This document shows, piece after piece, positions 31,968 to 52,784 of a stretch of 64,000 bases of DNA. A program made the translations under genes and the position numbers. Each line of letters starts with the position of its first letter. Position 1 is the first letter of the stretch. The notes under the pieces were generated by a model. The model had not been told where the DNA came from, did not search any database, and saw nothing but the letters and a program-made list of their open reading frames with translations. The DNA comes from a virus: the IMG/VR virus record IMGVR_UViG_3300047551_001153, positions 1 to 64,000 of that record, one strand, 5' to 3'.

Positions 31968-34310
31968 TTATAACTCAATTACGAGTTTAATTTCTTCTCT
32001 CTGTTCTAAATCTCTAAGAACTGGATTCATATTTTGTATGTATAGAATATCGCCAGACCTAAATTTCAACTCACCCTTATGGCTGATGGTTGTAATTTGA
32101 GCGTTTGTGGTTGATGTATTTCCTGATGGGCCTATTACGACATAATCAACATTTTGACCAACTGCGACATTTCCCTGCAATCCTGCGAGGCGAATATCGC
32201 CATAAGTTCCACCTGTTGACGGAACCCAGTCAATAATGTATCCATTCGCAATAGTCAATCCCGTTGAGAAATAAACCTGAGAGTCGGCGAGGAATGAATC
32301 TTCATCAAAATTCGTCCCACTGACTCTAACGGTTGTGGTTAGGTCGTAGACTGAGGGAACATTTTCAAGTTCCGTGGATATAGAGGTTATTCTCCCTGGC
32401 CCAGAAAATCCGTTCCCGACAACTTCAAACTTTGGAGTCATTTGGAGGACTGTTTCGTTGAGATCGAATCTGCCTTTCGGGAACTCCAGTGACAATATTC
32501 CCGATTTTCCAGACTCATCGGGAGACCAACCGCAAATCTGACCACTTGAATATGATTTTCCGACATTTAAAACTGTATTTCCTACGCCATGTGCGTAGTA
32601 ATTCTTGCTATAATCTGACCCATCGTCCGCAAAATCCGAGCCGACCGAGGCCAGTCTGAGATTGAGTAAATGCCTTCCCTCTTGTCCAGCCCGAGTTATT
32701 TCTCTTACATCAAAAATTTTGAAACCGGGGGCAAAGGTTGCACCCATGGCAAATGTGGGTCCAATTATGTTGTTCAAGACAAGTTCACTGGTTCCACTAA
32801 CACCATCCTTACCTTTACACCACTCTAATATTGTACCTATCGCACCCGTGCCTGTATTACCCCCGCCCGCAGTTCCGCCAACTGAGAAAGAACCAGTGAT
32901 ACCAGACTGATAGAATTTCAGTCTGAATTGCTTACTTTGCAATAAAGGATTTCTCAATATACCGAACTGCCTAAAGTCATTATCAGTGTCCACTTTACCC
33001 GATTCTTCACGATCATATTCGGCTACAATCATGTAAGCATTTGAACCGAGTTCCTTGACTGGGTTTGCACCGTGGCCACCTGGTGGGGGCATTACGGCAT
33101 GAATCAGATTTGCTATTTTTCGATATGTTGGTGGAGTGTAAGATAGAGCGGTTACGCCCTTGGGCACATCAAGGTTTGCAAACGAATAATCTTTTCCTCC
33201 ATTGATTATCTCTATTCCAGAGATCAATCTTGCCTCATAGGTATTGCACACATTTGTCGCCGCCGAATCCGCTGTTGATCCAAATTTCAAGGCTAAATCG
33301 GCTGTGGTAATATATGGATTTACGGTGCTTGTTCCAAATCCATCACCAGAAACCAAAACTCTGGGTTGAATGCTAAACAGGGATACATTACTTCCTGCTT
33401 CGGAACTGGAAAGACCTGTTGTTAATTCGTCTACATTGATTCTTCCATATCCACCGATAGAATTCCAAGTATAAGATTTGATAACTCGTCTTTGGCCCTG
33501 TCCCGCTCCGCTGTCAACACTAAAAATCATGTCCTTGTATTTTTCGGCTGTGGGCACTAAATCAGGAGATGATATGTCGATGTATGTTGCGCCCGCTGGA
33601 ACCGTAATAGCAACAAGATTCGTTCCACTTGGGAATATACAGTCGTCCGTGCTTACCCAGTAAATTTTTGCCGCATCGTCTGCGTATGCAAAATCAATTT
33701 TTCCATTTACTGCGTTTTGTTGAACAAGCCATTGCAGTCTTCGCTCATCGTTTGGCTGTAAGTATTCGATATATTCAACTGGCATATAACCGATGGCACG
33801 AGCATCGGATTTTGTCAAAAATTTTCTTTTGGTTTCAGTTATTTCGTATAAAAATTTCCAACGATATCCATCCGCCAGTTTTCGAACCAATGAATCGGTA
33901 TGGGTGGGTGGATACAGAGATTGGGAATTATTATTGTTGTCAATACAGATGTAAACTCGCTGATCATCAACTAAAGCGTAAAAATCGGCGGGTTTCAGAT
34001 CATCAAATAAGTCAACATCATCCCTATAGGCATCGAATACCTTACCTGGATTCCAATCAATTCTTCGAACAACAAGAGACACATCGTCTCTGTTGATTCT
34101 TTTGGCGGCAATCATGCCCCTCCAAAAATCAGTATCATCTTTGACCGAATCAATTGACGGTATTCTGTTGTCGTTTGTGACACCCCATTGAGTAATTTTT
34201 CCAATAGACAAATAGAGATTTTCTTCCGAAATATCGCTGTATTCGTCTAATAGCGTTTCCATGATGAAACGCTTGTGATTTTGTCGAAATGGGTCGCAAC
34301 TTCTGGGCAT
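31968..34310 (-). CDS. gp8: Baseplate wedge protein gp8, enlarged
   Basis: 780 aa against 334 for T4 gp8. The N-terminal third matches gp8 (LYLSIGKITQWG, DDTDFWRGMIAAKRI, DVSLVVRRIDWNPG, DGYRWKFLYEI, IGYMPVEYIEYL) and the extreme C-terminus again matches (HKGELKFRSGDILYIQNMNP then REEIKLVIEL), so about 450 residues of beta-rich sequence are inserted between. The first ATG is kept because residues 1-16 look alignable with T4 gp8; an inner ATG at 34262 is possible. A perfect TATAAATA ends only 10 nt before the start and there is no Shine-Dalgarno. Confidence 0.88.
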   Translation of the reverse strand: MPRSCDPFRQNHKRFIMETLLDEYSDISEENLYLSIGKITQWGVTNDNRIPSIDSVKDDTDFWRGMIAAKRINRDDVSLVVRRIDWNPGKVFDAYRDDVDLFDDLKPADFYALVDDQRVYICIDNNNNSQSLYPPTHTDSLVRKLADGYRWKFLYEITETKRKFLTKSDARAIGYMPVEYIEYLQPNDERRLQWLVQQNAVNGKIDFAYADDAAKIYWVSTDDCIFPSGTNLVAITVPAGATYIDISSPDLVPTAEKYKDMIFSVDSGAGQGQRRVIKSYTWNSIGGYGRINVDELTTGLSSSEAGSNVSLFSIQPRVLVSGDGFGTSTVNPYITTADLALKFGSTADSAATNVCNTYEARLISGIEIINGGKDYSFANLDVPKGVTALSYTPPTYRKIANLIHAVMPPPGGHGANPVKELGSNAYMIVAEYDREESGKVDTDNDFRQFGILRNPLLQSKQFRLKFYQSGITGSFSVGGTAGGGNTGTGAIGTILEWCKGKDGVSGTSELVLNNIIGPTFAMGATFAPGFKIFDVREITRAGQEGRHLLNLRLASVGSDFADDGSDYSKNYYAHGVGNTVLNVGKSYSSGQICGWSPDESGKSGILSLEFPKGRFDLNETVLQMTPKFEVVGNGFSGPGRITSISTELENVPSVYDLTTTVRVSGTNFDEDSFLADSQVYFSTGLTIANGYIIDWVPSTGGTYGDIRLAGLQGNVAVGQNVDYVVIGPSGNTSTTNAQITTISHKGELKFRSGDILYIQNMNPVLRDLEQREEIKLVIEL

Positions 34311-34320
34311 GGGTTTCTAC

Positions 34321-34328
34321 TATTTATA
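34321..34328 (-). promoter_or_regulatory. Late promoter (TATAAATA) for gp8
   Basis: Perfect T4 late consensus on the minus strand in the 34-nt gp7-position/gp8 gap, 10 nt before the gp8 ATG. Confidence 0.85.
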
Positions 34329-34344
34329 GTGGGTTATGTGACTA

Positions 34345-36513
34345 TTACGGATCGGTATCAATGTAAAGAATCACAATCGAATCAGATGGAACTAAAGGTG
34401 TCTTTTTACCATTTTCTGTCAAAGCATTTATTTGTATTCTATGTAAACCATAACTGGGGCTGGCGAACCTGCCCGTTCTTTGCTCAAGTGTCATTTTGGG
34501 GCCGATATTCGTAGCAGGTCTTCCGTCAACTAAAACTTCAATTTCAACCACTTTATCAGATGCGGGTAAAACCCTATTGTTTTCTCCATTTTCAACCGAT
34601 ATGGTCACCACCAAATCGTCCGCAGTTACCACTTCTCCATTTTTGGGACTGGCAATGGATATTGATGGGGGACTGATGTCATTGAAGTCGTATCGGCAAT
34701 CAAAGGGAATACCCACGGGCATCTCAAAGAAACTTCTGGCCGTTATTTTTCTGAATTCGGATGTGGGGGAATACTTCAAGAATGTGTATTTACTATCGAC
34801 AGGTTCGGCGGAATAGAAGTCGGCAGTCCATCCAGTCGCACCGATTCCACCCGTAATCGTGCAGAATTCATCCCATTTCCATCCGAACTCTGGGTTTCCG
34901 ACAACCTGATTTTTCCATATTCTGGCCAAAACAGGTTCTGTAATTTTTCGATTTGGGTGTTCATAAATGATCCAGAAAGGATCAGCGTATTTTCTGGCAG
35001 GCTCGCCCAAAGGTCTGAACTGACCTCTGTCTTCGTAAATCGGTTGGCTCGGAATCGAAAAACTTGGTAATGTATTCGTCGGGAGCGAGAACGGTGGAAC
35101 TGAGAGGTATGATGCTCTTGAATCAAATATTCTGAAAGGAACACCGCTCGATATTGGATTTCCCGGTATTGAAATGTTTTGTATCAATTCGTTATGGAAG
35201 AAGGGCATATACCCTTCAGCCGTAAGTGATCCCGGAAGTCCATCGTAAAGTTCATCCTCGTAACGAGTGAACCAATCTTGTAAATTGTCGTATGTCTTGA
35301 ATGTATATGGCGCATAGTGTCCGATTATTGGAACTTCGTACCTAATCATTGCGGAGGCGTTACGAATATCGTCCTGAGCGCATCGTTTAATCAAGACTTG
35401 ACCGAACATCGCCATTCCTGCTGGGTGTGTAAGTCTTCTTATGATTTCACGATACTGATCAATTATAACCTCTGTTTTCAGAACATATGAATAATCCTGA
35501 TAGTAGTGATTATCCTGCAAGACCTTGTTTGTACTCAGTCTTCCGTCATAATTGAGGTAGTAACCTTCAGATTTGCATAATGAACCAAGAACTGCGGTTC
35601 CAGAAAAACCAGATCCGCCGATAGATTCCACACTAACCGTTGGAGCCAATGAATAATTGATTCCAAAATTTTCAATTCTAATTTTTCTGATTGCGCCCGT
35701 GCTTGATATTGCCGAGACGATTCCTGACGCATCAAAACCAGAATCTCCAGTTGCGGATGTAAATCGAACTGCATCTCCTATCGAATAACCCGATCCTCCG
35801 TTTGTAATACTAACTGAAGACACTACATTATAAATTTTTATTTCGTTGAATGTTTCGCCATCAACATCGAAAGATGCGCCTGAATTTGCAACGAAGTTTC
35901 CGTTTCGATTCGATATCGTGATTTCGGCTACTTCATAAATTCCTTGTTGATATATGTTTACATCAACAACTTTTGCGGATGCTGTAATTTTTCCTGCGGC
36001 GTTTCGTTGATAAACTATCCGTCCGACTGAATCATAGATTCTTTCGCCAAGGGATGTGGTTGTTTTCAGCGCATTCTTTTCATACCATTTACCATCGGAT
36101 GTTCTCAGAATGTCTTTCTTGGGGTAGTAAAACTCCACACCGACATCGTAAAGAATCCTGAACAAGAACTCATATGATTTTTCCGTTCCCTTGCTTCTAT
36201 AGAAAGATTTTATATTCTTTATGAGTCTTTTGATGTCAACAGGCTTTCCTGTCGCATCAGAGATGGCGAGTTTTTCTGGAAAATTGAAGAGATATTCTTT
36301 TTTGAAATGGTCTATGAACTGGTCGATTGTATTATCAACATCTATGACATCACCTAAAGACATCGGACTGAGCAGTTTTCCATCTCTGTCATTGTTCTGA
36401 AGCCACTCGTAATAAGTCTCAAGAAATGAGACAAGAGTTGGATTGTCTACCCGAACAAATTCGGGCAGTTGTGTGCTGACCAACTCTGAAATTTTTCTAT
36501 CTTTGTCAATCAT
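34345..36513 (-). CDS. Baseplate wedge protein in gp7 position
   Basis: 722 aa. The N-terminus (ISELVSTQLPEFVRVDNPTL, SFLETYYEWLQ) and RLIKNIKSFYRSKGTEKSYE are shared by cyanophage-type baseplate proteins encoded between gp6 and gp8. A beta-rich, glycine-rich part follows (SITNGGSGYSIGDAVRF at about 235-250), and the C-terminal ~100 residues look Ig-like (PPSISIASPKNGEVVTADDL). T4 gp7 is longer (1032 aa) and I cannot show direct homology, so the wedge role rests on synteny. Confidence 0.82.
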   Translation of the reverse strand: MIDKDRKISELVSTQLPEFVRVDNPTLVSFLETYYEWLQNNDRDGKLLSPMSLGDVIDVDNTIDQFIDHFKKEYLFNFPEKLAISDATGKPVDIKRLIKNIKSFYRSKGTEKSYEFLFRILYDVGVEFYYPKKDILRTSDGKWYEKNALKTTTSLGERIYDSVGRIVYQRNAAGKITASAKVVDVNIYQQGIYEVAEITISNRNGNFVANSGASFDVDGETFNEIKIYNVVSSVSITNGGSGYSIGDAVRFTSATGDSGFDASGIVSAISSTGAIRKIRIENFGINYSLAPTVSVESIGGSGFSGTAVLGSLCKSEGYYLNYDGRLSTNKVLQDNHYYQDYSYVLKTEVIIDQYREIIRRLTHPAGMAMFGQVLIKRCAQDDIRNASAMIRYEVPIIGHYAPYTFKTYDNLQDWFTRYEDELYDGLPGSLTAEGYMPFFHNELIQNISIPGNPISSGVPFRIFDSRASYLSVPPFSLPTNTLPSFSIPSQPIYEDRGQFRPLGEPARKYADPFWIIYEHPNRKITEPVLARIWKNQVVGNPEFGWKWDEFCTITGGIGATGWTADFYSAEPVDSKYTFLKYSPTSEFRKITARSFFEMPVGIPFDCRYDFNDISPPSISIASPKNGEVVTADDLVVTISVENGENNRVLPASDKVVEIEVLVDGRPATNIGPKMTLEQRTGRFASPSYGLHRIQINALTENGKKTPLVPSDSIVILYIDTDP

Positions 36514-36523
36514 GACTTATTAC

Positions 36524-38446
36524 TTATGTGTTGAAAGGAAACCCTCTGTCAGATGCGCCTCTATCAATAACAGTCTTTTCCTCATATACATCTACCTGAA
36601 TCTTGTCATCATTGAATTCCAACACCTGATTTCTTCTCACAAAAATGTCGTTTCTATTTGGAATTACGCTTATTCGAATTTCACTTGAACCATCCAAGAT
36701 TGAAATTGGAGCGAAGTTTTTGAGTGATATTTTTCCAGTTTCATAGTTGATTGTTCCCACATTATCAACCAAATAAACCTTATTTCCATTTACTAACTTG
36801 TATATTCGAACCTTTCCATATCCGTCATCATCAAAATACGCCACAACGCTGGGTTTATTTGCGCTCGTTGAGGCATAGTCTATGTAATAGAAAGCCGTGG
36901 ACTCAAGAATAGACGGATATCCATCAATCGGATGTTTAAGTGGATTGTCAAAGTTTATAGTGTATGGAAAACTTTGCCCAAGAACTGGCTCGATTACCTT
37001 TTCAAGAACTAAATCAACATTACTGCTGTTGATTGATGTATCCATTCTATCAATCGTTGCCAAAAACTTGGATGCTCTAAAATTAGATCCAAATTTGTTC
37101 AGATTTTCGTCGCCAAATTCTATCGTTCTATTTCTCAGGCTCGTTGACATTTCCGTGCTTGTTACAAATGTTTTTGAAGAATCAAAATAAACTTTTACTT
37201 TGGGCACGATATATGTTATGTCGGGGTCAACAACCTCTGGGGTTACAGTCAAAATACTTCTGTCTCTTAGGACTGTTCTTGCGATGGACTGCTTCTCGGT
37301 AATTGAAAGTTTCGGAGAATTTTTAGGTTTGATGCTTATGAACACTTTACCATATTGCGGGGGATCGTTTTCCTCTCCGCCCCAAACCAAGAAAGACTCG
37401 GATCTAAGGCTATAATCTCTTGCAAGAAGGGCAAGATAGTCATCTTTTGTCACCGCTCTATCTTGCGCCTGATACGATCTTGGTGCATAATACTTAACTG
37501 ATTCGACCTCTTCAGGGCTTTCTCCTCCATAAGATGGCTGAGGTTTTCCTTCATCGTTTACTACAACAGTTGCCTTGTATACCTCATCCACCACGCTAAA
37601 TGTTGGTGTGTTTTCAGAATCGGTTGATCCCACACCATTGCCTAAAGTTCCCTTGGATGAAAGATAAACTATAGTAATCAGATTTCCATTTTCTAATGCT
37701 CTTCCGATGATTCCATCACCAAAATAAATCTCCCATGTTTGATCTTCTGCTTCTTGTAAAAAGAATACAGTCGAATCACCACTTAGTTCCGTGATGTCAG
37801 TTGCCTTTTGCCAGACTTCATCAATGTTTGCTGTGTTTGATACTGATTTTGCAACACGAAGTAAAATAGTGTCCACATCGACATTTTTATCGGTTATTAA
37901 AAATCGTTGATTCGTATCTCGTGTGTTTACGATGTATGACTCTGATTTAAATGCACCCTCATAAATGGTGACATTTCTCGCAACAAACTGATTTCCAAAC
38001 ACTTCGACTCTATGGTCACTCAATGTATTGAATGTTACGGTGTCGCCGTTCTGCCCTCTGGTAGTGAACTTAGTTCCACGAGGAATTGTTAGCGAACCAG
38101 ACTTTGATCTCAGATTTGCGGTTCGAATATCTTCAGTATTGTTCACCAGATACTCAATATCGACATTTATTCTTGCTGACTTTGTTGATCTGGGGGTATA
38201 ATTTAGGTGCTTGGCGAGAGACACGACCGATGCTCGTTTTCGAGCAGAGTCAAGAAAAGCCTCATTTGCGACCATGTTGGCATAGAAAGCCTGATAGTGC
38301 GTGTTATATGCAAGCAAATCAAGAATGATGTTGAGTGTCGAACCTTCGAAATCGTAATCCTTGAAAGTTTCCTGACCTCTCAAGTAATCCCGAAGACTTT
38401 TCTTGATTAAGTCGAAATCAAGTTGGTCAACTGGTGTGTTAGCCAT
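36524..38446 (-). CDS. gp6: Baseplate wedge protein gp6
   Basis: 640 aa (T4 gp6 is 660). gp6 forms the inner ring of the wedge and is the homologue of P2 gpJ. The N-terminus shows PVDQLDFDLIKKSLRDYLRG, then DYDFEGSTLNIILDLLAYNT, YQAFYANMVANEAFLDSA and RASVVSLAKHLNYTPRS, all diagnostic. Mid-protein TKDDYLALL and RSESFLVWGGEEND follow the expected order. It overlaps gp25 (TAATG) and has AAAGGACT upstream. Confidence 0.96.
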   Translation of the reverse strand: MANTPVDQLDFDLIKKSLRDYLRGQETFKDYDFEGSTLNIILDLLAYNTHYQAFYANMVANEAFLDSARKRASVVSLAKHLNYTPRSTKSARINVDIEYLVNNTEDIRTANLRSKSGSLTIPRGTKFTTRGQNGDTVTFNTLSDHRVEVFGNQFVARNVTIYEGAFKSESYIVNTRDTNQRFLITDKNVDVDTILLRVAKSVSNTANIDEVWQKATDITELSGDSTVFFLQEAEDQTWEIYFGDGIIGRALENGNLITIVYLSSKGTLGNGVGSTDSENTPTFSVVDEVYKATVVVNDEGKPQPSYGGESPEEVESVKYYAPRSYQAQDRAVTKDDYLALLARDYSLRSESFLVWGGEENDPPQYGKVFISIKPKNSPKLSITEKQSIARTVLRDRSILTVTPEVVDPDITYIVPKVKVYFDSSKTFVTSTEMSTSLRNRTIEFGDENLNKFGSNFRASKFLATIDRMDTSINSSNVDLVLEKVIEPVLGQSFPYTINFDNPLKHPIDGYPSILESTAFYYIDYASTSANKPSVVAYFDDDGYGKVRIYKLVNGNKVYLVDNVGTINYETGKISLKNFAPISILDGSSEIRISVIPNRNDIFVRRNQVLEFNDDKIQVDVYEEKTVIDRGASDRGFPFNT

Positions 38447-38838: not shown

Positions 38839-38850
38839 ATTACCCCCTTA

Positions 38851-42914: not shown

Positions 42915-43812
42915 TGAAAATCTTCCTCAATTCCGTTGCGACAAATTCAGTAAATTCTGGGCGCAACATTTTTATAACTCTCTTCTTGTCGTTTTCCCTG
43001 ATTTCATAGTCGATGTTAATTATGGGTGTCACAAATGATCCGTCAGGCATTGGACGCAAATCATTTCCACGAATATATCGCTCAAGATTGCTTGACTTAT
43101 TTTTATCGGCGTTTACATATACGGGATTTATACCCAAATCTCTTCTTACCTGCTCTATACTTTCAACAAAATGATGGTCAACTATTTCTTCCGAGTCTAA
43201 CTTTTCGAAATGATGAACTGCGTAGCGATTGTCATCTACGATTCGATAGACTCTTGCGGTAAAGGACTTCCCATCCGATCTTTGATGATAAAGGATGTTC
43301 TGCGATATACCGAAGAAGTCCAAACTTTCAGGTATTGTGCTGACACTTGGTGAATTTTCATCTACTACGACTTTGTATAGGTTCGGTTCCCAAGCCAGAA
43401 TGGTCACATCATATCCATTGATTGTGGTGACGCTTCCTTCGGATGTGGGCTGAATCCAGAAATCGCTTTGGGTGGATGATGCCTCTTCTAAATCTATAAA
43501 GTACGCCCTTCCTGGATACTTTTGGCTCACGGATTTTTCCAACTCAACGCTTGATGATGGCCAATCAAAATATGGATTCAGTATCTCATTGAAAAGCAGT
43601 ATCGTCCAATGGAGTGTCGGTTTTCCGTAAACACGATAGGCTAATTGTTCGGGTCTTTCGCCATCTCTGATCGTATAATCCAAATAAGACACTTGAGTGT
43701 TGCTTACATAATCAAGTATTTTTGCACGCACGGTCAAATCGGTCGCCAACATCGGAGGTCTTCCGACATCATCGCTGTAATACGATACTGGGAAATACTT
43801 GAAGTATGACAT
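42907..43812 (-). CDS. gp53: Baseplate wedge protein gp53
   Basis: 301 aa from the ATG at 43812 (GAGGAT upstream; a TTG one codon earlier is less likely); T4 gp53 is 196 aa. Characteristic text is DYTIRDGERPEQLAYRVYGK then LHWTILLFNEILNPYFDWP, the LysM-like element of gp53 that joins neighbouring wedges. The extra length is in the second half (to FVATELRKIFIG). Start and gp48 stop overlap as TGATG. Confidence 0.93.
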   Translation of the reverse strand: MSYFKYFPVSYYSDDVGRPPMLATDLTVRAKILDYVSNTQVSYLDYTIRDGERPEQLAYRVYGKPTLHWTILLFNEILNPYFDWPSSSVELEKSVSQKYPGRAYFIDLEEASSTQSDFWIQPTSEGSVTTINGYDVTILAWEPNLYKVVVDENSPSVSTIPESLDFFGISQNILYHQRSDGKSFTARVYRIVDDNRYAVHHFEKLDSEEIVDHHFVESIEQVRRDLGINPVYVNADKNKSSNLERYIRGNDLRPMPDGSFVTPIINIDYEIRENDKKRVIKMLRPEFTEFVATELRKIFIG

Positions 43813-45080
43813 CAATATCCTCTGTCAATTTCTTCTCTGGTGAGTATTGAGAGTTCTTCGAAATCAAGCGACATTCTTACGAGAGTGGGGTGAACAACGG
43901 TTGACTTTCCGTCAGTGCTTGCAAGTTTGAATCCACTGAAAAATTTTTGCTCTCCATACTTAACATCTATTCCCGTTAGAGCGCACTTTCTGATTTTTGG
44001 TACACGGATAATTTCTTCATTATTGAAAAGAAAGGTTATATCGAACTCTGCGGGAAAGTCAAGAAACCTACCATCTCGTGATCTTTTGGGGTGGCTATAT
44101 TGCCTGAATTTTCTCACAATCATGTCCACGGATTTCGCTTCCTGTGGAGAGCGAGGAGTAAAAGAGAATTCATATTTAAACTTTCTTCTCTGAACACCCT
44201 TGAACAAGTGAACAAGAAAGGGGTTTACAATCTCACGCTTGCTTGCTTTGTTGTAGTTTTGAAACAATTCTTTTCCACCTAAACTATCAGCAACTTCATC
44301 TGCTACACTTAGCATTTGCAAAGAAAGTTTTTTAGCAATCTCGCCCATCCCGTCTGGGTTGTCAATTCCTCCAAGTGCTTGGAGGGCTTTAACGATGTCA
44401 ATAGCACCAAGATCGGCTGATTCATAATCCATTTGAGAATTGAATGAAATATTCGAAGGAAGATACAAGTATATCGACTCTTTCTTCTCCGTCAGACCAA
44501 CTAAACCAGTCACTTCTTCTTCTTTACTATCACGCATGGTTCCTACGCCAGTTACATTTCCATTTGCATCTCTTTGAAAGTCACGCTTTTTGACCTGACT
44601 TCCCGTGACATTTGTAATCTGACTTATTTGTGTCTGCAAAGCGGCGTTTCCACCTTGCAATAAGGCTTTGCCATATGTTGTGGCCGAAACTCCGTTGCCT
44701 GCCTCTCGTTGTTGTTTTAACTCGGCGTAAGCCTTATCTAAAGATGCCATGGCATCGTTATTTCTTTTTCGGTTTGAGTCGAGAGTAGCACCACCAGTAT
44801 CAAATATATCAAATCTCATTCCAAATGCGTACTCTTTGGTCTGAAATAAATCCCTTGGAAAGTAAAGCAGTCGAGTATCTTTACTTAGATCATCACCATA
44901 AAGTTTCGATTCAAACTCATTTGAAACTGGTGGATTAGGCTCGGGCGTTGATTGAGTATCGAGCGAGCCTTTGAACACCGATGATTCATTATTAGTCTCA
45001 ACTACGGTGGTTCCGTCAGCAAGACGATATTTGTCATCTGCGCCGTTGTCTGATTTACCTAAGTATATTCTGTCTGGCAT
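43812..45080 (-). CDS. gp48: Baseplate tube cap protein gp48-like
   Basis: 422 aa from the ATG at 45080 (MPDRIYLG). The 30 codons of upstream open frame overlap the divergent promoters and are not expected to be translated. The C-terminal half has KFKYEFSFTPRSPQEAKSVD followed by IVRKFRQYSHP, which parallels the 'W.LTPRS..D......Y..F.Y' element of T4 gp48, and ends with a tail-tube-like beta domain. It would form the first ring on which gp19 polymerises. A CTAAATA motif ends 5 nt before the ATG and there is no close Shine-Dalgarno. Confidence 0.85.
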   Translation of the reverse strand: MPDRIYLGKSDNGADDKYRLADGTTVVETNNESSVFKGSLDTQSTPEPNPPVSNEFESKLYGDDLSKDTRLLYFPRDLFQTKEYAFGMRFDIFDTGGATLDSNRKRNNDAMASLDKAYAELKQQREAGNGVSATTYGKALLQGGNAALQTQISQITNVTGSQVKKRDFQRDANGNVTGVGTMRDSKEEEVTGLVGLTEKKESIYLYLPSNISFNSQMDYESADLGAIDIVKALQALGGIDNPDGMGEIAKKLSLQMLSVADEVADSLGGKELFQNYNKASKREIVNPFLVHLFKGVQRRKFKYEFSFTPRSPQEAKSVDMIVRKFRQYSHPKRSRDGRFLDFPAEFDITFLFNNEEIIRVPKIRKCALTGIDVKYGEQKFFSGFKLASTDGKSTVVHPTLVRMSLDFEELSILTREEIDRGY

Positions 45081-45085
45081 AATAC

Positions 45086-45092
45086 TATTTAG
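45086..45092 (-). promoter_or_regulatory. Late promoter (CTAAATA) for gp48 and the baseplate operon
   Basis: Minus-strand CTAAATAGTATTATG. The start codon follows the motif after only 5 nt, placing a T4-like initiation point at or next to the ATG. Divergent from the plus-strand promoter at 45102. Confidence 0.7.
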
Positions 45093-45101
45093 TCCCTTTC
45101 C

Positions 45102-45109
45102 TATAAATA
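45102..45109 (+). promoter_or_regulatory. Late promoter (TATAAATA) for gp4
   Basis: Perfect late consensus on the plus strand ending 10 nt before the gp4 ATG at 45120; no Shine-Dalgarno lies between. Confidence 0.85.
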
Positions 45110-45119
45110 CATCCACATC

Positions 45120-45584
45120 ATGACACGGCGACCCAACGAGAGTTATAAGGGGAAGTACACTCCCCGACACCCCGAGAAGTACAAAGGCAATCCCGACCTT
45201 TGTATCTACCGCTCGCTCTGGGAACGAAAGTTCATGACATTCTGCGATGACACCCCGTCCGTCATTGAGTGGTCATCGGAGGAAATCGTCGTTCCCTACA
45301 TCTCGCCTCTGGACGGACGCAGACACCGCTACTTCGTGGACTTCTGGGTCAAGGTCAAGTCCAAGGACGAGACCATCAAGGAGTACCTGATTGAGGTCAA
45401 GCCGAAGTCCCAAACCGAGCCTCCCAAGCCCCCCAAAACCAAGCGGGTCTCCAAGTCCAAAATAACGGAAATGCGGAACTGGATGATTAACTCCGCCAAA
45501 TGGAACGCCGCCCGTAAGGTTTGCGAGGATAAGGGTTGGGAGTTCAAGATTCTGACCGAAGATAATCTTTTCTCCACCAGTTGA
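45120..45584 (+). CDS. gp4: Head completion nuclease gp4
   Basis: 154 aa (T4 gp4 is about 150). gp4 acts at the filled head before tail joining. The text YKGKYTPRHPEKYKGNPDLC, IYRSLWERKFMTFCD, then VIEWSSEEIVVPYISP is the family signature. Asp74 in YFVDFWV and the Glu92-x-Lys94 of LIEVKP form a PD-(D/E)XK-type nuclease core, as in TnsA-like enzymes. It is the first gene of the plus-strand segment and probably has a near-leaderless late mRNA. Confidence 0.95.
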   Translation: MTRRPNESYKGKYTPRHPEKYKGNPDLCIYRSLWERKFMTFCDDTPSVIEWSSEEIVVPYISPLDGRRHRYFVDFWVKVKSKDETIKEYLIEVKPKSQTEPPKPPKTKRVSKSKITEMRNWMINSAKWNAARKVCEDKGWEFKILTEDNLFSTS

Positions 45585-45608
45585 TTTTTGCCGATTCGGG
45601 AGTATACT
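45581..45608 (+). promoter_or_regulatory. Sigma70-like early promoter for gp61
   Basis: TTGATT (45581-45586), 16-nt spacer, TATACT (45603-45608). The -10 and following six bases (TATACTGACCCC) are identical to the promoter of gp46. The -35 overlaps the gp4 stop codon. Confidence 0.65.
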
Positions 45609-45614
45609 GACCCC

Positions 45615-46643
45615 ATGGCGATGTACTTAGATGCGAAGTTCATAAACCTGCTCTCCCCGAGGCTTGAGCGGTTCAAGTGGAAGAAGAGCAACCTTGCCAG
45701 TTGCCGTTGCCCCGTCTGTGGCGACTCAATCAAAAACAAGTCCAAGACCCGCTTCTATTTCTATGAAAAGAACGGCGACTATTTCGTCCGTTGCCATAAC
45801 TGCGACTACAGCACCACTCTGGGTGTATTCATTCGTTTCATGGACGAGGGGCTTTACCGACAATATTGTCTGGAAGCCTTTGCCGACAAGAAGGCGGCCT
45901 CGCCTACCCCCGAGCGCAAGCCCGAGCCTATAACGCCTCCTAAGCCAAAGAACGAGGCTTTACAGAGCATCCCGAGACTCGTTGACCTGCCCAAAGACCA
46001 CTGTGCCCTCGCATGGGCGGACACCCGAAGGATTCCCGAACAACGCCGACACCTCCTCTACTACGCCCCAAACTTCTGGGAGTTCGTCAATCAGATTGAC
46101 CCCGAAGCCAAGGTGGGTGATGACGAGCGTATCGTTATCCCTATCTTTGACCTAAAAGGTAATCTCACGGGCGTGCAGGGGCGACTTCTGAAATCGAATA
46201 ACCACAAGTGGAAAGAAATCCGATACATGACTATCAAGGTCAACCCGAACGGAGACCGACTCTGGTATGGTCTGGAGCGAGTCAAGACTGATGAGCCAAT
46301 CGTAGTTACGGAAGGGCCGATTGACAGCCTGTTCCTCCGTAATGGCGTGGCGATGCTTGGCTTGTCCGACCCACTCTATGTCCCCGAGGGTATCCCACCC
46401 GAGCGTCTCATCTACGCTCTGGACAATGAACCCCGTAACGAGCAGGTTGTTGAAGCCATGCTCAAACTTGTCGATGCGGGGCGTAAGGTTTGTGTCTGGG
46501 ACAGGAGCGTCAAGTCCATCAAGGACATCAATGATATGGTCATGCGAAACATCCGACCAGTTGAGATTGAGTCCATGATACGCACCTGTTCCTACAACGG
46601 ATTGTCTGGAATGTTGGCCGTGAATCGTTGGAAGCGAGTCTAA
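45615..46643 (+). CDS. gp61: DNA primase gp61 (DnaG type)
   Basis: 342 aa from the ATG at 45615. It makes RNA primers for lagging-strand synthesis with the gp41 helicase. An N-terminal zinc site is formed by Cys32/Cys35 (RCPVCGD) and Cys60/Cys63 (RCHNCDY). A proline-rich linker (98-112) separates it from the TOPRIM catalytic region, with Glu233 in VVTEGPIDSLF and Asp270 in IYALDNEP. An upstream TTG at 45588 lies inside the predicted promoter and is rejected. The ATG is 6 nt after the -10 box. Confidence 0.95.
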   Translation: MAMYLDAKFINLLSPRLERFKWKKSNLASCRCPVCGDSIKNKSKTRFYFYEKNGDYFVRCHNCDYSTTLGVFIRFMDEGLYRQYCLEAFADKKAASPTPERKPEPITPPKPKNEALQSIPRLVDLPKDHCALAWADTRRIPEQRRHLLYYAPNFWEFVNQIDPEAKVGDDERIVIPIFDLKGNLTGVQGRLLKSNNHKWKEIRYMTIKVNPNGDRLWYGLERVKTDEPIVVTEGPIDSLFLRNGVAMLGLSDPLYVPEGIPPERLIYALDNEPRNEQVVEAMLKLVDAGRKVCVWDRSVKSIKDINDMVMRNIRPVEIESMIRTCSYNGLSGMLAVNRWKRV

Positions 46644-46646
46644 ATA
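46640..46646 (+). promoter_or_regulatory. Late promoter (CTAAATA) for the Sm-like gene
   Basis: CTAAATAG overlaps the gp61 stop codon and lies 23 nt before the ATG at 46670, with AAGGAG between. Confidence 0.7.
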
Positions 46647-46669
46647 GCGTACCTTATAAGGAGTCTTGT

Positions 46670-46969
46670 ATGAATGTGAAGTTAATTGGTTTGCCGAGCG
46701 GTGAGCAGTTGTTGGTGGATGTCGTGGGTGAAGATGGTCAGGGTCTTCATATCAAGTCCCCCGCCGTCCTTCTTCCTGCGGGTCAGGGGCGTTTGGCTCT
46801 TGTTCCGTGGCTCCCGTACGGCGAGACGGACAACATGGTTTTGAAGAATGTGTCGTTCATGATTGCGCCGAAGGTGGAACTCCTGAACGAGTACAACTCC
46901 ATGTTCGGTAGTGGTCTGGTGATTCCTCCCAAGGAACTCGCCACGCCGAAACTTGTCCTGACCGAATAG
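46670..46969 (+). CDS. Sm-like (LSm fold) phage protein
   Basis: 99 aa from the ATG at 46670 with AAGGAGTCTTGT upstream; the frame is open to 46628 but that part lies in gp61. The pattern MNVKLIGLPSGEQLLVDVVG, then IKSPAVLLPAGQG, VPWLPYGETDN, the later VxxxxxPKVELLNEYNSMFG matches my memory of a family from ocean metagenomes and cyanophages whose structure showed an Sm-like fold and an oligomeric ring. RNA binding is therefore possible but not shown. It is the last plus-strand gene before a bidirectional terminator. Confidence 0.8.
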   Translation: MNVKLIGLPSGEQLLVDVVGEDGQGLHIKSPAVLLPAGQGRLALVPWLPYGETDNMVLKNVSFMIAPKVELLNEYNSMFGSGLVIPPKELATPKLVLTE

Positions 46970-46982
46970 TCTTACCTGTTCC

Positions 46983-47015
46983 AAAAGAAAGGCCCCCGAA
47001 AGGGGGCTTTTTCTT
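46983..47015. terminator. Bidirectional rho-independent terminator
   Basis: Stem GCCCCC/GGGGGC (46992-46997 with 47002-47007) with a GAAA tetraloop, flanked by TTTTTCTTT on the plus side and by AAAAGAAAG on the left (CTTTCTTTT on the minus strand). It separates the convergent Sm-like and gp46 genes and can stop both. Confidence 0.9.
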
Positions 47016-48721
47016 TATGCCATCTTACTGAAGTTGCCCTTCTTGACAACTTGGATATGCCTCTGGAACTTGTCCTGAAGCACTTCCTTGGACTTGTGGC
47101 TGATGACGAAGACATTCACCCCGCCGCCCTTCATGCTGTTGAGAATCTCAAGGAAGGCTTCGGTGGATGTATCATCAAGCGACCCGTCAAGCACCTCGTC
47201 CAGAATGAGAAGGTTCGTGGACAGGCTGTTCTTGACTTCGGCCATAGACCGCCATGCGAAGAGCAGGGCAAGGTCAATCTTACGCTTCTCTCCTTCGCTG
47301 AAGGATGCGTAGGTGAAGATGTCCCGATGGCGGGACTTGATGGTCTCGTTGAACTCATCGTCCAGTTGGAAGTTGACAAAGAAGTTCATCATGCTGAGAT
47401 ACTTGTTGATGATGAGATTGATGACTGGGATGTAGTTCTTGATGATTTTTTTCTTGATGCCGCCGTCACGAAGCAGGACGCTTGCGAGATTCATGTAGTG
47501 TTGCTCCTCCACAAGTTCCTTCTTGGAGTCAACCGCTTCGCTCTCCTCGTTGAGATATGTCTGGAGCGTATCCTCTTCCTTGCGAAGTTTCTCCGTGTCA
47601 ACGCCACGACTGCGAACCTTGCCGATGTACTCGTTCAGGTTCTCAATGTCATTGGTCTTGTTGGTCACGAGTGCCTGAAGACTGGCGACTTCATGAAGGA
47701 TGTCGGTGATTGCGTCATATCGGTCTTCGGCTTCCTTGAACTTCGCCGTCAGTTCCGACAAGGCGGTCTCTAACTCGTTCTTTCGGTTGGACTTTGACTC
47801 AATCGTCGCCTTCTTAAACTCGTCAGCAATCGCCTGTTGGCAGGAAGGACACTTATCATTCTTAGTGTAAAACTCAACCTCCTTGCGAATGGACGATATT
47901 TTCTTCTCAATCTGGGCCTTGAGTTCAAAGCACTTCTCCTTCTGCTTCTGGACGGTTTTCTTATCGGACACGGATGAAACCATGGTGTCTATGCGGGTCA
48001 CGAGGTCTGAGATTTCCGTCTGGATTTTGGCGATGGATTCAGAGGTCTTTTGAACTTCCGTCTCCTCCCACTCCCTGTCCTTCTGAGAACGATTGCGCTC
48101 GTCCTCAATGACCTTCTTCTGGCTTCGGACTCGCTCCTTGGCCACGGCGAGTTGGGTGTCCGTTTGGGCCATCTCCTCCTTGGTCTGACTGGCACGCTCC
48201 TTGAGAAGGGTGTTCATGATGGAGAACACGCCGATGTCCAGAACGCTTTCCACGATGGTTCGGCGTTCGGCGGCTGGTAGGCGCATGAACGGGACATAGT
48301 TGGCCGAGCCGAGGATGACCACCTGACAGAACGCACGGAAGTTCATGCGAAGGATTTGCTCCTCCAGAAACTTCTGGCCGTCCTTGGCCTTGGCCTCTTG
48401 GTCAAGGAACTTTCCGTCCTTCCAGATTTCAAAGACCTTGGGAGCCTGCCCACGCACGACCTTGTACTCATGCTTGCCGTCCGAGAACTCAATCTCAACC
48501 ACGCAGTCCTTCTCGTTGACCGTATTGACCAACTGAGGAAGATTGATGGCACGGTAGGGCTTGTTGAACAGGACGAAGGTCAGAGCATCCAATACGGTAC
48601 TCTTACCCGCCCCGTTCTCGCCGCTGATGAGGGTTGTATAGGTGTCGCACAGGGAGACCTCGTTGAAGGTGTTGCCTGTGGACAAGAAGTTTTTCCAACG
48701 GATTTTTGTGAATGTAATCAT
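47015..48721 (-). CDS. gp46: Recombination endonuclease subunit gp46 (SbcC/Rad50-like ATPase)
   Basis: 568 aa from the ATG at 48721; 14 codons further upstream would run into the promoter. With gp47 it resects DNA ends for recombination-dependent replication. Walker A GENGAGKST (34-42), coiled coils flanking the zinc hook KCPSCQ (Cys291, Cys294), an ABC signature FSEGEKRKIDLALL and Walker B LLILDEVLDGSLD are visible. gp47, adjacent in T4, is not in this window. There is no Shine-Dalgarno in the ~27-nt leader. Confidence 0.95.
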   Translation of the reverse strand: MITFTKIRWKNFLSTGNTFNEVSLCDTYTTLISGENGAGKSTVLDALTFVLFNKPYRAINLPQLVNTVNEKDCVVEIEFSDGKHEYKVVRGQAPKVFEIWKDGKFLDQEAKAKDGQKFLEEQILRMNFRAFCQVVILGSANYVPFMRLPAAERRTIVESVLDIGVFSIMNTLLKERASQTKEEMAQTDTQLAVAKERVRSQKKVIEDERNRSQKDREWEETEVQKTSESIAKIQTEISDLVTRIDTMVSSVSDKKTVQKQKEKCFELKAQIEKKISSIRKEVEFYTKNDKCPSCQQAIADEFKKATIESKSNRKNELETALSELTAKFKEAEDRYDAITDILHEVASLQALVTNKTNDIENLNEYIGKVRSRGVDTEKLRKEEDTLQTYLNEESEAVDSKKELVEEQHYMNLASVLLRDGGIKKKIIKNYIPVINLIINKYLSMMNFFVNFQLDDEFNETIKSRHRDIFTYASFSEGEKRKIDLALLFAWRSMAEVKNSLSTNLLILDEVLDGSLDDTSTEAFLEILNSMKGGGVNVFVISHKSKEVLQDKFQRHIQVVKKGNFSKMA

Positions 48722-48728
48722 AATGAAA

Positions 48729-48770
48729 TCGTCCGATGTACACCGATTGGGGTCAGTATACATCGGACGA
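48729..48770. promoter_or_regulatory. Operator-like inverted repeat over the gp46 promoter
   Basis: Perfect 12-nt arms TCGTCCGATGTA (48729-48740) and TACATCGGACGA (48759-48770) separated by 18 nt. One arm overlaps the spacer and the edge of the -10 box; the other lies just after the predicted start. Only one arm would be transcribed, so it is more likely a DNA site for a dimeric repressor than an RNA hairpin. Confidence 0.7.
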
Positions 48771-48782
48771 AATTTTTGTCAA
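48755..48782 (-). promoter_or_regulatory. Sigma70-like early promoter for gp46
   Basis: Minus-strand TTGACA (48777-48782), 16-nt spacer, TATACT (48755-48760), then GACCCC. The -35 is consensus and the core matches the gp61 promoter. Confidence 0.85.
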
Positions 48783-48790
48783 GAGGTTCT

Positions 48791-48904
48791 TTACTGCTTG
48801 TTCCAAGGGAGTTTCGCCGATGCCCACTTCCATGCGGGACCGCCGATCAACGCACCTGCGACAAACATGAGAACGCTCCACCAGACTACGCTAAGACCAA
48901 ACAT
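48791..48904 (-). CDS. 37-aa single-pass membrane protein
   Basis: A short frame starting at ATG 48904 with AAAGGAGCATTT directly upstream. The product MFGLSVVWWSVLMFVAGALI continues with GGPAWKWASAKLPWNKQ: one hydrophobic transmembrane helix (about residues 4-22) and a basic, Trp-rich tail. It could be a small inner-membrane protein such as a holin-like or superinfection factor; nothing in the sequence decides. A perfect TATAAATA on the same strand at 49015-49022 could drive it late. Confidence 0.75.
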   Translation of the reverse strand: MFGLSVVWWSVLMFVAGALIGGPAWKWASAKLPWNKQ

Positions 48905-48916
48905 AAATGCTCCTTT

Positions 48917-51900
48917 CTATCGAGTTAGAATATTATATGTTATATCTACGGCTGATGTTGGAACATATCTGTGGTTTCTAAAGAACTGATCTGCACCATT
49001 CATCAACTTGATCTTATTTATAGTGTGAATATCCATTCTTCGATTTATTTCAGGAAATGATGCTCTGTTTATTTGCTGATTGTTTTCATTGTATAAACTA
49101 TTATAATATCTCCAATTTTGTGAAACTTTAGCGAGTGGCCTGATTGGATAGTCATTTCTCGTATAAAAGAATCTTTCAATATCCGCTACGGTTGTGATTC
49201 CTTGCGGGAATTCATTTACACCAAAGAATATATTCATCAATTCACCCTTATCTTGATTCGGAATCTCAGAACTCAGCAAAAACTCGGGAATGGTTCTGGT
49301 AGTGAGACTCATCGAATATTTCGGCCCACTTATATTGTTACTAATCGGAATATCCGTTCCAAATTGCGCCCTACAAGGCATAGGCGAATTTCCTAAACTT
49401 ATTCTTCTATATTGACAATTAAGCGGTGGTATAGGTATTCCTGTATTTGAACACACGCAAGCAGTTGCTCCAAATGATCGCTCAAGGTTCGTTATCGTAT
49501 CGTCTGGTATTTCTATACATTTTGATACAAATGAGGTTTCTTGTACATTTACAAGGCCAGCGGCTCCTCTATCACGAACAACCTGAGTTTGCGATACATC
49601 TCCAATAAAATTTGATCTGGATGAACACCCGCATCTACCGCCACTATACGATATTGCGGAAGGTCTTCTTGATGATGGAACGGGTGGTCCGCCCAATCCA
49701 ACTTCACTTCTGAATACACAACCGTTTGAACTTAGGCATTGATCACTACAGCATCCATTAAACATATTTCTTTTGATTTTGTGCGAATAAATCTTGAGGG
49801 GAACACCAACTTGACAAGTACAATCGGAACTCTCCCAAAGTATAGTGTCAATCGAAAAACACTCAAGGTGCGGAATAACTCCGCAATCGGAGCAATTTTG
49901 AGCGCATCTATCAAAATAAATGTCTGAAACAGCCGTAATTTTTATTGAATATAAAACACCGACCACGATAGTTGTGCCGTCATTTTTCACTACTTCTGAA
50001 ATTATGAAAAGATCATTTACATTTACATCATTTGTACTTGACACAGAACCTGGTGTGGGAATGACACCATTTACAAACACATTTAGGTGTCCCTCTTGTA
50101 TTGAACCTCTCGGCGGAAGCGGTGAATATCCCGTGGGATGAACTGTGTATATAATTTGAGCCTGAGTTGATGGATCATAAACTTTTATATATTTTACATC
50201 ATCAAAAAAGTCCGAAATGCTTGCTCCTTCAATGCGAAGTCTTAATCTCAATCCAAAATCAGCATACCATTCTCCACCAGCACGAATACAATCGCATTTT
50301 CCAACTATAACGGAAGAGCAGATATTGTTGATATAACAAGAGCCAGCCAAAGTATCATCCGCCAGACACTCCTCGCAAGTAGACACCCGAGTTCCACCCA
50401 TTCTTTCACATTGCGCTCTCTGTACAATTGAGCAAGACCCACGGCACTGGGTTCCCTCTGGAGACGGCAAACAGCAAAGAACGGGGACATAATCACAGCA
50501 ATTGTCAGCCAATGGGCTAAAGTCCGATAGTGTTGGAGGTGTGTCTTCCTGTCCTACACATTGGTACGAATTGTTCCAACGATTTGAAAGAACAAGTTCT
50601 GCCCCACTCACTCCCACACAGTTTCCATTAGAATTAAACATCAGAGTTTGATTTGAAGATCCAATCGGAACACTCTCAGAAAGGAATCTCATATAATCAG
50701 AAGCGTAAGTTTTCGAGTAAAATTCGTGTTGTTTATAGAGTTCAGATTCGGTTGGAAATAAATCATTTCCAGTAATAGTCATGGTTCTGATTTTAACATT
50801 TAATCCAGAAATATCTTCATCAGTGATTCGTGGCGGCTCTTCGAAAACAGTTGGTATATCAAGAAGGCGTGGAACAGATAATTTTGTCAGGCTACTACCA
50901 GTTACGGGCGGATTGTAAAACAAATCAAATTCAGGATTTCTTACTATTGTAAAATCCCATTTACTGTTTGGACCTATCGGACCCGTGATGCTGATTTTAC
51001 CATCCAAAATAATTTGATCACGAATATTCACATCTCGCTTAAACTTGAACAGCGATATGTAAGAAGTTTCTCCACCATATGAAACACCTGCAATTCTTCC
51101 GATATTATCAGGGTTTGCGAATCCGCCAGATGTTGTATTGTAGTAATAAAATGTCAGTCCTACACTTGGGAATCCTTCTCCAGTATTACCTGTCACTCCA
51201 ACTACAACACCCTCAGTATATGGACTGATCGTCAAAGTGCCACCCGTGAGTCTTTGATCTGGTTGTTTCCACCTCAATATTTCATAATTTGCCGTTTCTC
51301 CTGATCCTTTGACCATGACATATTTGTGTTCATTGAATGTATCCGTTGTAAGCCCGTTTCCCGAAACTGAAAGGACTACAATCTTATTCTGATCATATTC
51401 GAAAGAAATCGGTTGGTATTGAGCGTATGAATTATTTGACCAAATTGGTAAATTTTCGCTGGGCGGAGTTCCAAAAGACTCTCTTCCTATAAAGTTTCTC
51501 GATCTTCTTTGCAAATACTCCAAATTCCCCGACGATTGATCAGATGAAAATGCCGCAGTCAAAGCGAAAGGAATTTGATCCAAATAAACAAAACCATCGC
51601 AACCGTATATTGTGTTTATGGGAGTATTTGATAAGTACGGGCTTGCCGCAGGTTCAATCATCCCGCCCTTGAACATGGCTTCTGAAATAAACTTGTCTGT
51701 TGCATATGACTTATTACCAGTATAACCATCCAAGAAGGAAACTATGGAAGAGGTTCTGCTGTCCTCTATTTTTTTACCTCTGAGGAATCTTCCCGTTGGG
51801 TCATCATAGAACCCGATAAATCGAGATCGGTACATATTGTTCACAAGGGGAAGAACTTCTTTTCTTTCCGAGCCATTATTGATCACATCATTGTCAGCAT

Positions 51901-52768
51901 ATACTTTTGACAACCTGATCAAATCTTCGGTATGATTTCTCTTGCTTTCAATCGAATACCATTCTCTCGATTCTCCCTCATGGTCATACAATGGATTGAT
52001 GTCTGGACAAATCCAACCCGATTTTTCCAAAATTGTAGATACGCTGTCGGTGAAATTGGATAAATGCCAGTCCTTCAAATCCTGCGGAGCGTTTGCCCAA
52101 CTATACATTACCTCATCCAGATTTCCTATCTTGGGATGATTGTTGTCCCAATAGTTTGTGGACCCTACTCCTGTATTTGTTCCATAGCCACCCTCAGACA
52201 TAACCTGAGAAAATTGCCAAGTGAAAAAATCGTTTGTTTCTGGTGCGTAAATGACTGTCTGAGGAATGTAGGGAAGTCCCGCAAAACTAAATTTGATTTT
52301 TGGGAATGTGTTGTTCAAATGTTCAAGCATCGCTGTGGCGGCTGAGACCGTCTGCGTAAATATAGTCGAACTCTTGTTTGATTGTCCGATAATACCATCA
52401 CCCGTGATGATATTCCATGAGGGAGATCCTCTAAAGTCCAACAATATTTTGCCTGATATCTCATTATCAAAAACATAATTTGTGGCAATATAATCAGAGA
52501 AGTCGGTAAGACCAGTTTCTTCCATTCCCGTCATACTTGGACTTTGCCAAAATACGGGGATATATGCAACCAAGTTATCAGTACCGCTTGAGGGAGTTCC
52601 GTCAGATGGTGTTTCCTGAACTCTGTAATCAAAAATATCGTTCAACTGATCGCCGTGTGTATTTCCATAATTCGGAAACGGATTGGGATATGTATTTCCA
52701 TTCTTTGCCGTATATTCTTCAGTAAAGGATGGGAGTGCATTGAATAATTTGAAATATTTTATTGGCAT
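48917..52768 (-). CDS. Giant Cys-rich virion protein, possible TIM-barrel N-terminus
   Basis: 1283 aa from the ATG at 52768; eight upstream codons would overlap the late promoter. The N-terminal ~400 residues show spaced strands KILLDFRG, KIKFSFAGLPYIP, GWICPDINPLYD and VLPLVNNMYR, suggesting a TIM barrel (inference). Residues ~520-605 share a module with the 1618-aa fibre (GFPSVGLTFYYYNTTSGG and TGPIGPNSKWDFTIV). The C-terminal 550 residues are very Cys-rich (NCCDYVPVLCCLPSPEG, CDCIRAGGEWY, NGCCSDQCLSSNGC), implying disulfides or metal sites. It is probably a tail adhesin or fibre. Confidence 0.85.
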   Translation of the reverse strand: MPIKYFKLFNALPSFTEEYTAKNGNTYPNPFPNYGNTHGDQLNDIFDYRVQETPSDGTPSSGTDNLVAYIPVFWQSPSMTGMEETGLTDFSDYIATNYVFDNEISGKILLDFRGSPSWNIITGDGIIGQSNKSSTIFTQTVSAATAMLEHLNNTFPKIKFSFAGLPYIPQTVIYAPETNDFFTWQFSQVMSEGGYGTNTGVGSTNYWDNNHPKIGNLDEVMYSWANAPQDLKDWHLSNFTDSVSTILEKSGWICPDINPLYDHEGESREWYSIESKRNHTEDLIRLSKVYADNDVINNGSERKEVLPLVNNMYRSRFIGFYDDPTGRFLRGKKIEDSRTSSIVSFLDGYTGNKSYATDKFISEAMFKGGMIEPAASPYLSNTPINTIYGCDGFVYLDQIPFALTAAFSSDQSSGNLEYLQRRSRNFIGRESFGTPPSENLPIWSNNSYAQYQPISFEYDQNKIVVLSVSGNGLTTDTFNEHKYVMVKGSGETANYEILRWKQPDQRLTGGTLTISPYTEGVVVGVTGNTGEGFPSVGLTFYYYNTTSGGFANPDNIGRIAGVSYGGETSYISLFKFKRDVNIRDQIILDGKISITGPIGPNSKWDFTIVRNPEFDLFYNPPVTGSSLTKLSVPRLLDIPTVFEEPPRITDEDISGLNVKIRTMTITGNDLFPTESELYKQHEFYSKTYASDYMRFLSESVPIGSSNQTLMFNSNGNCVGVSGAELVLSNRWNNSYQCVGQEDTPPTLSDFSPLADNCCDYVPVLCCLPSPEGTQCRGSCSIVQRAQCERMGGTRVSTCEECLADDTLAGSCYINNICSSVIVGKCDCIRAGGEWYADFGLRLRLRIEGASISDFFDDVKYIKVYDPSTQAQIIYTVHPTGYSPLPPRGSIQEGHLNVFVNGVIPTPGSVSSTNDVNVNDLFIISEVVKNDGTTIVVGVLYSIKITAVSDIYFDRCAQNCSDCGVIPHLECFSIDTILWESSDCTCQVGVPLKIYSHKIKRNMFNGCCSDQCLSSNGCVFRSEVGLGGPPVPSSRRPSAISYSGGRCGCSSRSNFIGDVSQTQVVRDRGAAGLVNVQETSFVSKCIEIPDDTITNLERSFGATACVCSNTGIPIPPLNCQYRRISLGNSPMPCRAQFGTDIPISNNISGPKYSMSLTTRTIPEFLLSSEIPNQDKGELMNIFFGVNEFPQGITTVADIERFFYTRNDYPIRPLAKVSQNWRYYNSLYNENNQQINRASFPEINRRMDIHTINKIKLMNGADQFFRNHRYVPTSAVDITYNILTR
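49015..49022 (-). promoter_or_regulatory. Late promoter (TATAAATA) ahead of the 37-aa membrane protein
   Basis: Perfect consensus on the minus strand within the last codons of the 1283-aa gene, about 110 nt before the small gene's start. Confidence 0.6.
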
Positions 52769-52776
52769 GGCTTGCT

Positions 52777-52784
52777 TATTTATC
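52777..52784 (-). promoter_or_regulatory. Late promoter (GATAAATA) for the 1283-aa protein
   Basis: Minus-strand GATAAATAAGCAAGCC overlaps the stop codon of the HExxH gene and ends 8 nt before the ATG at 52768; no Shine-Dalgarno. Confidence 0.75.

Follow-up and report, generated by a model that had tools for sequence, protein, structure and literature searches.

The window, which comprises the first 64,000 nucleotides of IMG/VR virus record IMGVR_UViG_3300047551_001153, is part of a 77,599-base record (G000) of a T4-like phage, and the subject of this analysis is the distance between its late promoters and the start codons of the genes that they serve. The late promoters of the window fell into two groups by spacing d, the number of bases between the end of the motif and the ATG, with d = 5, 8, 9, 10 and 10 in one group and d = 19, 20, 20, 20, 22, 22, 23 and 42 in the other. 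Genes of the long-spaced group (19-42 nt) were preceded by a Shine-Dalgarno (SD) site, whereas those of the short-spaced group (5-10 nt) were not. We consider it highly probable, from the sequence, that this T4-like lineage has two late-promoter architectures, one leadered and one a compact leaderless cassette. The first would be of the ordinary T4 kind, in which a leader of about 12-23 nt with an SD site separates the late motif from the AUG. The second would be a cassette of about 15 bases, [AC]TAAATA-N5(-10)-AUG, in which transcription starts at the AUG or 1-5 nt before it and translation starts without an SD site, presumably by direct binding of the ribosome to the 5'-terminal AUG.

Late-promoter spacing and SD sites in the clade

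The late motif [AC]TAAATA was scanned in nine contigs of the window's clade (G000-G004, G006, G007, G009, and G010; 943 kb). Among the 314 motifs found, 14 lay at d = 5, 19 at d = 6, 12 at d = 7, 5 at d = 8, 6 at d = 9, 4 at d = 10, and 5 at d = 11. The distribution was bimodal, with a trough at d 12-16 (6 motifs in total) and a further rise between 17 and about 28. Chance does not explain the short spacing, because 60 motifs were observed at d 4-10 while each of 14 permuted motifs gave 1-5 matches there (2.7 expected when scaled to 314). The same signal appeared in a motif-free positional search for 6-mers, where TAAATA at d = 5 was among the strongest upstream signals of the clade and the cultured Pelagibacter phage HTVC008M, beside SD words; in the outgroups a related word, ATAAAT, appeared at d = 22. 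A TATAAATA-like motif was found upstream of late genes, unlike its permutations, as for a T4-type late promoter. A homologue of the late sigma factor gp55 is encoded in G000 outside the window (67373-67735, E 1.5e-19), and in a search of the contigs no gp55 was detected in G003.

A strong SD core, scored within -17 to -4 of the ATG, was present in 7 of 66 short-class genes and 75 of 99 long-class genes (Fisher P 2e-17), the short-class figure being partly depressed because the AT-rich motif itself fills the scored stretch. Genes without a late motif had such a core in 39% of cases. Together with the bimodal spacing, these counts bear out the suggestion of the initial annotation that the genes with abutting promoters form a distinct subset lacking SD sites. 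The AT-rich element could in principle be a translational enhancer, an A/U-rich site of the S1 type, on transcripts that start further upstream, and S1-dependent initiation on mRNAs without an SD site is known (discussed in PMC5397173). We regard this as very improbable, since the signal comes from the exact late motif, permutations of which do not give it, the identical motif stands 17-28 nt before genes with SD sites, and divergent genes carry the motif as a back-to-back pair. In HTVC008M it is also locked at 5 nt, a register that A/U enhancers do not require.

The position of the transcription start was predicted from the leadered late promoters, in which the initiating purine should stand out downstream of the motif. 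Downstream of these, the frequency of purines peaked at base 6 after the motif, reaching 1.00 in Methylophilales phage Melnitz-3, 0.98 in Syn9 and S-CRM01, 0.77 in T4, and 0.72 in phiM12 and DLP6. The structure of gp55 with its promoter showed recognition of adenines at -12, -9 and -8 (PMC7892883), and these fit TATAAATA when it is placed at -13 to -6. The purine peak, taken with the T4 structure, leads us to infer that +1 is the sixth base after the late motif, and predicted leader lengths were computed on this basis. A spacing of d = 5 would therefore put the A of the AUG at +1, and a sharp lower limit at d = 5 is expected because any shorter spacing would cut into the AUG. Such a limit was found in the clade, where a single match lay below d = 5 as against 14 at d = 5.

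Short-class promoters were found at divergent gene pairs in 20 of 65 cases, compared with 4 of 99 for the long class, and the median gap between same-strand genes was 18 nt in the short class and 48 nt in the long class. The compact cassette would fit a complete expression signal into a very short intergenic space, above all between divergent genes, and compaction is the simplest function to propose for it.

Short-spaced and leadered genes of the window

The initial annotation had listed four late genes (gp8, gp48, gp4 and a gene of 1283 aa) with an abutting late motif and no SD site, and all its coordinates proved correct. The promoters of gp48 and gp4 stand back to back, each adjoining its own gene. 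The gp48 motif, CTAAATA, lies on the minus strand at 45086-45092 with d = 5, which would place the A of the AUG at +1, and gp48 (baseplate tail tube cap; 43812-45080, minus strand; PHROG 230, E 1.4e-42) is thus predicted to be leaderless. The gp4 motif, TATAAATA, lies on the plus strand at 45102-45109 with d = 10 and a predicted leader of about 5 nt, so that gp4 (head completion/closure protein; 45120-45584, plus strand; PHROG 218) would be near-leaderless in the window. The same spacing was found for gp8, a baseplate wedge subunit of 780 aa (31968-34310, minus strand; PHROG 438, Pfam PF09215), whose motif TATAAATA lies at 34321-34328 on the minus strand with d = 10; it is also predicted to be near-leaderless, as is the 1283-aa gene (48917-52768, minus strand), whose motif GATAAATA (52777-52784, minus strand) has d = 8. 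The latter assignment carries the caveat that GATAAATA, at 52784, overlaps the TGA stop codon of the upstream gene. With +1 at base 6, the predicted leaders were 0 nt for gp48, 3 nt for the 1283-aa gene, and 5 nt for each of gp8 and gp4, in line with the 0-5 nt proposed earlier.

A further late motif, absent from that list, was found on the minus strand (CTAAATA, 59028-59034, d = 9) before a tail-fibre-like gene of 167 aa (58515-59018, minus strand; ATG at 59018), which is predicted to be near-leaderless; an AAGG is present there, but upstream of the predicted +1. Elsewhere in G000, outside the window, two more genes belonged to the short class: one at 69908 for a UvsW helicase (d = 7), and one at 72405 whose product is an FmdB-like zinc ribbon protein (d = 5). 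The leadered late genes of the window contrasted with these, as the initial annotation had noted for several of them: the motif of gp22 (scaffold; 4163-4170, minus strand) had d = 22 with GAAGGAG, that of gp19 (tail tube; 9743-9749, minus strand) had d = 20 with AAGGAG, and that of gp18 had d = 42 with an SD site. The motif of a 597-aa gene (61739-61746, minus strand) also had d = 20. The products of gp4, gp8, gp18, gp19, gp22, gp48, and gp61 and the portal protein of the window all matched their own PHROG families.

The start codons might instead be misassigned, with an inner codon behind an SD site in real use and leaders of ordinary length. This is a common annotation error, and a second in-frame ATG lies about 17 codons into gp8. 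However, inner in-frame starts with an SD site, the alternative foreseen in the initial annotation, were seen in 7% of the short-class genes, no more than the 9% of the long class. The homology of gp8 to its relatives begins at residue 1 (46-57% identity), UvsW matches the Pfam UvsW_N model from residue 4, and the deposited start codons of HTVC008M coincided with the predicted ones in 7 of 7 genes checked. We find misassignment scarcely credible as an explanation.

Other features of these genes were recorded. The window gp8 has 780 aa compared with 334 in T4, and looks extended or fused, because PHROG 438 matches residues 23-460 while Pfam Gp8 and PHROG 977 match only the last 40-50 residues. 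The 1283-aa gene had no match in Pfam or PHROG families; its orthologues in G001, G002, G004, and G007 range from 579 to 918 aa, as expected for a fibre-like protein. The FmdB-like zinc ribbon gene (PF09723; 72405-72674 in G000) has an abutting late promoter, at d = 5 or 11, in G000, G001, G002, G007 and HTVC008M, which suggests a conserved late regulator.

Conservation of the spacing and points against the reading

Spacing and start codon were both conserved in the short class. With orthologues of gp48 and the 1283-aa gene drawn from whole contigs, seven clade genomes had gp48 at d = 5, 5, 6, 7, 6, 5 and 6, and HTVC008M had it at 5; gp8 had d = 10, 9, 7, 7, 7 and 7 in six clade genomes, mostly without an SD site; and UvsW had d = 7, 7, 6, 6 and 5 in five. 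All 24 distinct gp48 upstream regions from IMG/VR relatives of HTVC008M (pelagimyophages) at 43% protein identity or more (>=43%) had d = 5, while those of more divergent relatives mostly had d = 20-28, several with AAGGA. The 1283-aa family included members at d = 8 (window), 7 (G007) and 11 (G002 and G004), and a leadered member at d = 27 (G001). HTVC008M had 7 long-class and 12 short-class promoters, and 11 of the latter had exactly d = 5; its divergent DNA end protector (gp2-like) and gp4 genes were both at d = 5. Melnitz-3 had three late promoters at d = 5. Some orthologues switch between the SD-led and the SD-less spacing: four clade genomes have the head-tail adaptor Ad2 (gp13-type) at d = 20 behind an SD site, and in HTVC008M it stands at d = 8 and lacks the site. 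When reciprocal orthologues with a late motif were paired, 161 pairs were short-short, 55 short-long, and 213 long-long, numbers that are inflated by related contigs.

Conservation of the spacing in related phages, which had been proposed beforehand as a check, thus held for gp48, gp8 and UvsW and failed for gp4. The spacing d = 10 of gp4 was kept in the close relatives L003-L005 although the spacer sequence had changed, but most other clade relatives had a good SD site followed by AUC, AUU or AUA between the late motif and the YKG residues of gp4. These apparent starts behind a strong SD site were seen in L006, L007, L008, L012-L017, G001, G002, G004, G006, G007, and G010, and in G001, G002, G004, G007, and L007 there was no in-frame AUG, GUG or UUG between the motif and the conserved YKG. 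The gp4 genes of these relatives look like users of a conserved non-AUG start, which, if true, would be IF3-sensitive, as in infC. By its sequence, gp4 would then alternate between two forms, one pairing a strong SD site with a weak start codon and the other having AUG but no SD site. Since most relatives are of the former kind, gp4 is a poor example of the leaderless class and not a conserved member of it. In marine relatives (e.g. L018-L033) the divergent gp48 and gp4 promoters face each other, each nearer the opposite gene, giving leaders of about 20-25 nt, unlike the arrangement in the window (45080-45120). The nearest named gp4 among the matches listed was that of Melnitz-3 (about 58% identity), and genome-binned relatives of gp4, sought as a route to the host of the window's clade, were not found.

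Several observations weigh against the two-architecture reading. The contigs G001, G002 and G004 are closely related, so the clade counts are partly non-independent. The purine peak of the leadered clade promoters was flatter than in the other phages (0.63 at base 6 and 0.64 at base 7), and because it is weaker and spread over two bases, start sites in the clade may vary by a base or two. Use of AUG alone as a start codon was considered as a signature of leaderless genes and rejected, as the leadered late genes also start nearly always with AUG. At d = 10 the window copies of gp4 and gp8 would have leaders of about 5 nt, which is near-leaderless and not exactly leaderless. Many short-class genes with a same-strand neighbour begin 8-20 nt past the upstream stop codon, where termination-reinitiation could contribute.

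Translation of the short-class genes might depend on coupling, with ribosomes that have just finished the upstream gene on read-through transcripts and with the abutting promoter as a secondary booster. A same-strand upstream neighbour was present for 45 of 65 short-class genes, and the motif of the 1283-aa gene overlaps the upstream TGA, both of which favour coupling. The remaining 20 of 65 in the clade, and 4 of 12 in HTVC008M, stand at divergent pairs and have no upstream gene to couple to; they include gp48/gp4 of the window and the DNA end protector/gp4 pair of HTVC008M. Coupling also leaves a motif at exactly 5 nt unexplained. The divergent pairs exclude it as a general explanation, which we judge unlikely, but it may still add expression in same-strand genes. 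A mixed picture, in which only genes at d = 5-7 (gp48, UvsW, and the zinc ribbon gene) are exactly leaderless and those at d = 8-10 (gp4, gp8, and the 1283-aa gene) have leaders of 3-5 nt that work differently or poorly, seems to us rather less improbable, though still not likely. The main peak at d 5-7 with a shoulder at 8-11 agrees with it, as does the frequent SD site in gp4 relatives. Against it, most gp8 relatives lack an SD site while keeping to d = 7-10, and for this reason the shoulder looks continuous with the peak. We retain the reading of two architectures, and infer initiation on leaderless mRNA for the compact one.

Early promoters and comparison with known systems

The compact layout is not specific to late genes, because sigma70 early promoters of the clade share its geometry. 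Full -35/-10 patterns ended at d = 6-8 before an ATG in 11 cases, 8 of them at d = 7, compared with 3 at d 14-25 and 1-2 for control patterns at d 6-8. A search for -10 hexamers alone produced just a weak spike at d = 7, which the full pattern resolved. No sigma70 pattern was found at d 4-13 in T4, Syn9, S-CRM01, phiM12 or DLP6. In the window the case is gp61 (DNA primase; 45615-46643, plus strand; PHROG 47, E 1.3e-70), which is predicted to be leaderless from an early-type promoter, as the initial annotation had pointed out. Its promoter (45581-45608, plus strand) consists of TTGATT (45581-45586), a 16-nt spacer and TATACT (45603-45608) with d = 6, and its -35 hexamer shares bases with the stop codon of gp4. 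Relatives kept this promoter 6-12 nt before the start, with TTGATT..TACACT at d = 6 in L003 and d = 11-12 in G001, G002, G006 and HTVC008M. The earlier idea of a translation mode peculiar to late infection does not agree with these early promoters; as several of them share the compact layout, the ribosomes of the host can probably use leaderless mRNA throughout infection. SAR11 is an abundant ocean bacterium and the host of pelagiphages. In SAR11 host genomes, sigma70 promoters abutting an ATG were no more frequent than a reversed-pattern control (5 and 3 matches), counts that are small and leave the comparison underpowered.

A wider reading, to which we give slightly less than an even chance, is that a T4-like branch, which includes SAR11 pelagiphages and the freshwater group of the window, has reorganised much of its expression, late and in part early, around leaderless mRNAs, with the mode switching gene by gene during evolution. 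If so, the infected cell would run two initiation pathways, one for leaderless and one for SD-led virion mRNAs, with different demands on initiation factors and ribosome state, and the phage could use these differences to adjust the ratios of its proteins. Late motifs abutting an AUG make up about a fifth of all late motifs in the window's clade and over half of those near a start codon in HTVC008M; such a lineage would offer a clear example from nature of leaderless mRNAs produced through a phage sigma factor. Because HTVC008M is cultured, the prediction is directly testable. Gene prediction guided by SD sites may put the starts of virion genes in the wrong place in these very abundant aquatic phages, and orthologues that switch between SD-led and leaderless forms would provide matched pairs for studying how initiation routes are exchanged. 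Searches of the open-access literature found no report of leaderless late mRNAs in T4-like phages, cyanophages or pelagiphages.

Late transcription in T4 is a textbook system, and T4 late mRNAs carry ordinary leaders with an SD site. The T4 late promoter (gp55/gp33/gp45), at which transcription starts about one helical turn downstream of the TATA box, has the same motif as the promoters described here and would share their predicted start position, and G000 encodes a gp55 homologue; the difference is that T4 late genes are leadered. The TATA box of the T4 late promoter lies at -10 (review PMC2988020). The short class was restricted to some lineages, as no late motif lay at d 5-11 from an ATG in T4, Syn9, S-CRM01, phiM12, DLP6 or contig G012. 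The cyanophages Syn9 and S-CRM01 are T4-like with the same late motif, and in Syn9 gp48 adjoins gp4, as in the window, but the late promoters stand 32 nt (gp48) and 24 nt (gp4) from the starts.

HTVC008M and its relatives, including Melnitz-3 (PMC9004378), have the same two-class architecture as the window, and HTVC008M is the purest case. HTVC008M and Melnitz-3 differ in encoding the ribosomal protein bS21 (91237-91392 in HTVC008M; 35461-35619 in Melnitz-3): a search for PF01165 found it only in these two phages and not in contigs G000-G010. Phage bS21 as a general cofactor of leaderless translation was rejected, since clade contigs with the short class are without it. Both bS21-encoding phages are marine and have exact d = 5 cases, and within the marine branch bS21 may have a part in translating leaderless mRNAs.

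In the leaderless mRNAs known from bacteria and archaea (Mycobacterium, PMC4633059 and PMC3898074; review PMC9031893), too, a -10 element directly precedes the AUG and there is no SD site, and their 5'-terminal or near-terminal AUG is what the motif spacing predicts here. Translation of leaderless mRNAs goes by 70S or IF2-favoured initiation at such a 5'-terminal AUG. The literature found treats cellular sigma factors or isolated phage examples, lambda cI among them, whereas the promoter here is a late promoter specified by the phage and the genes are virion genes.

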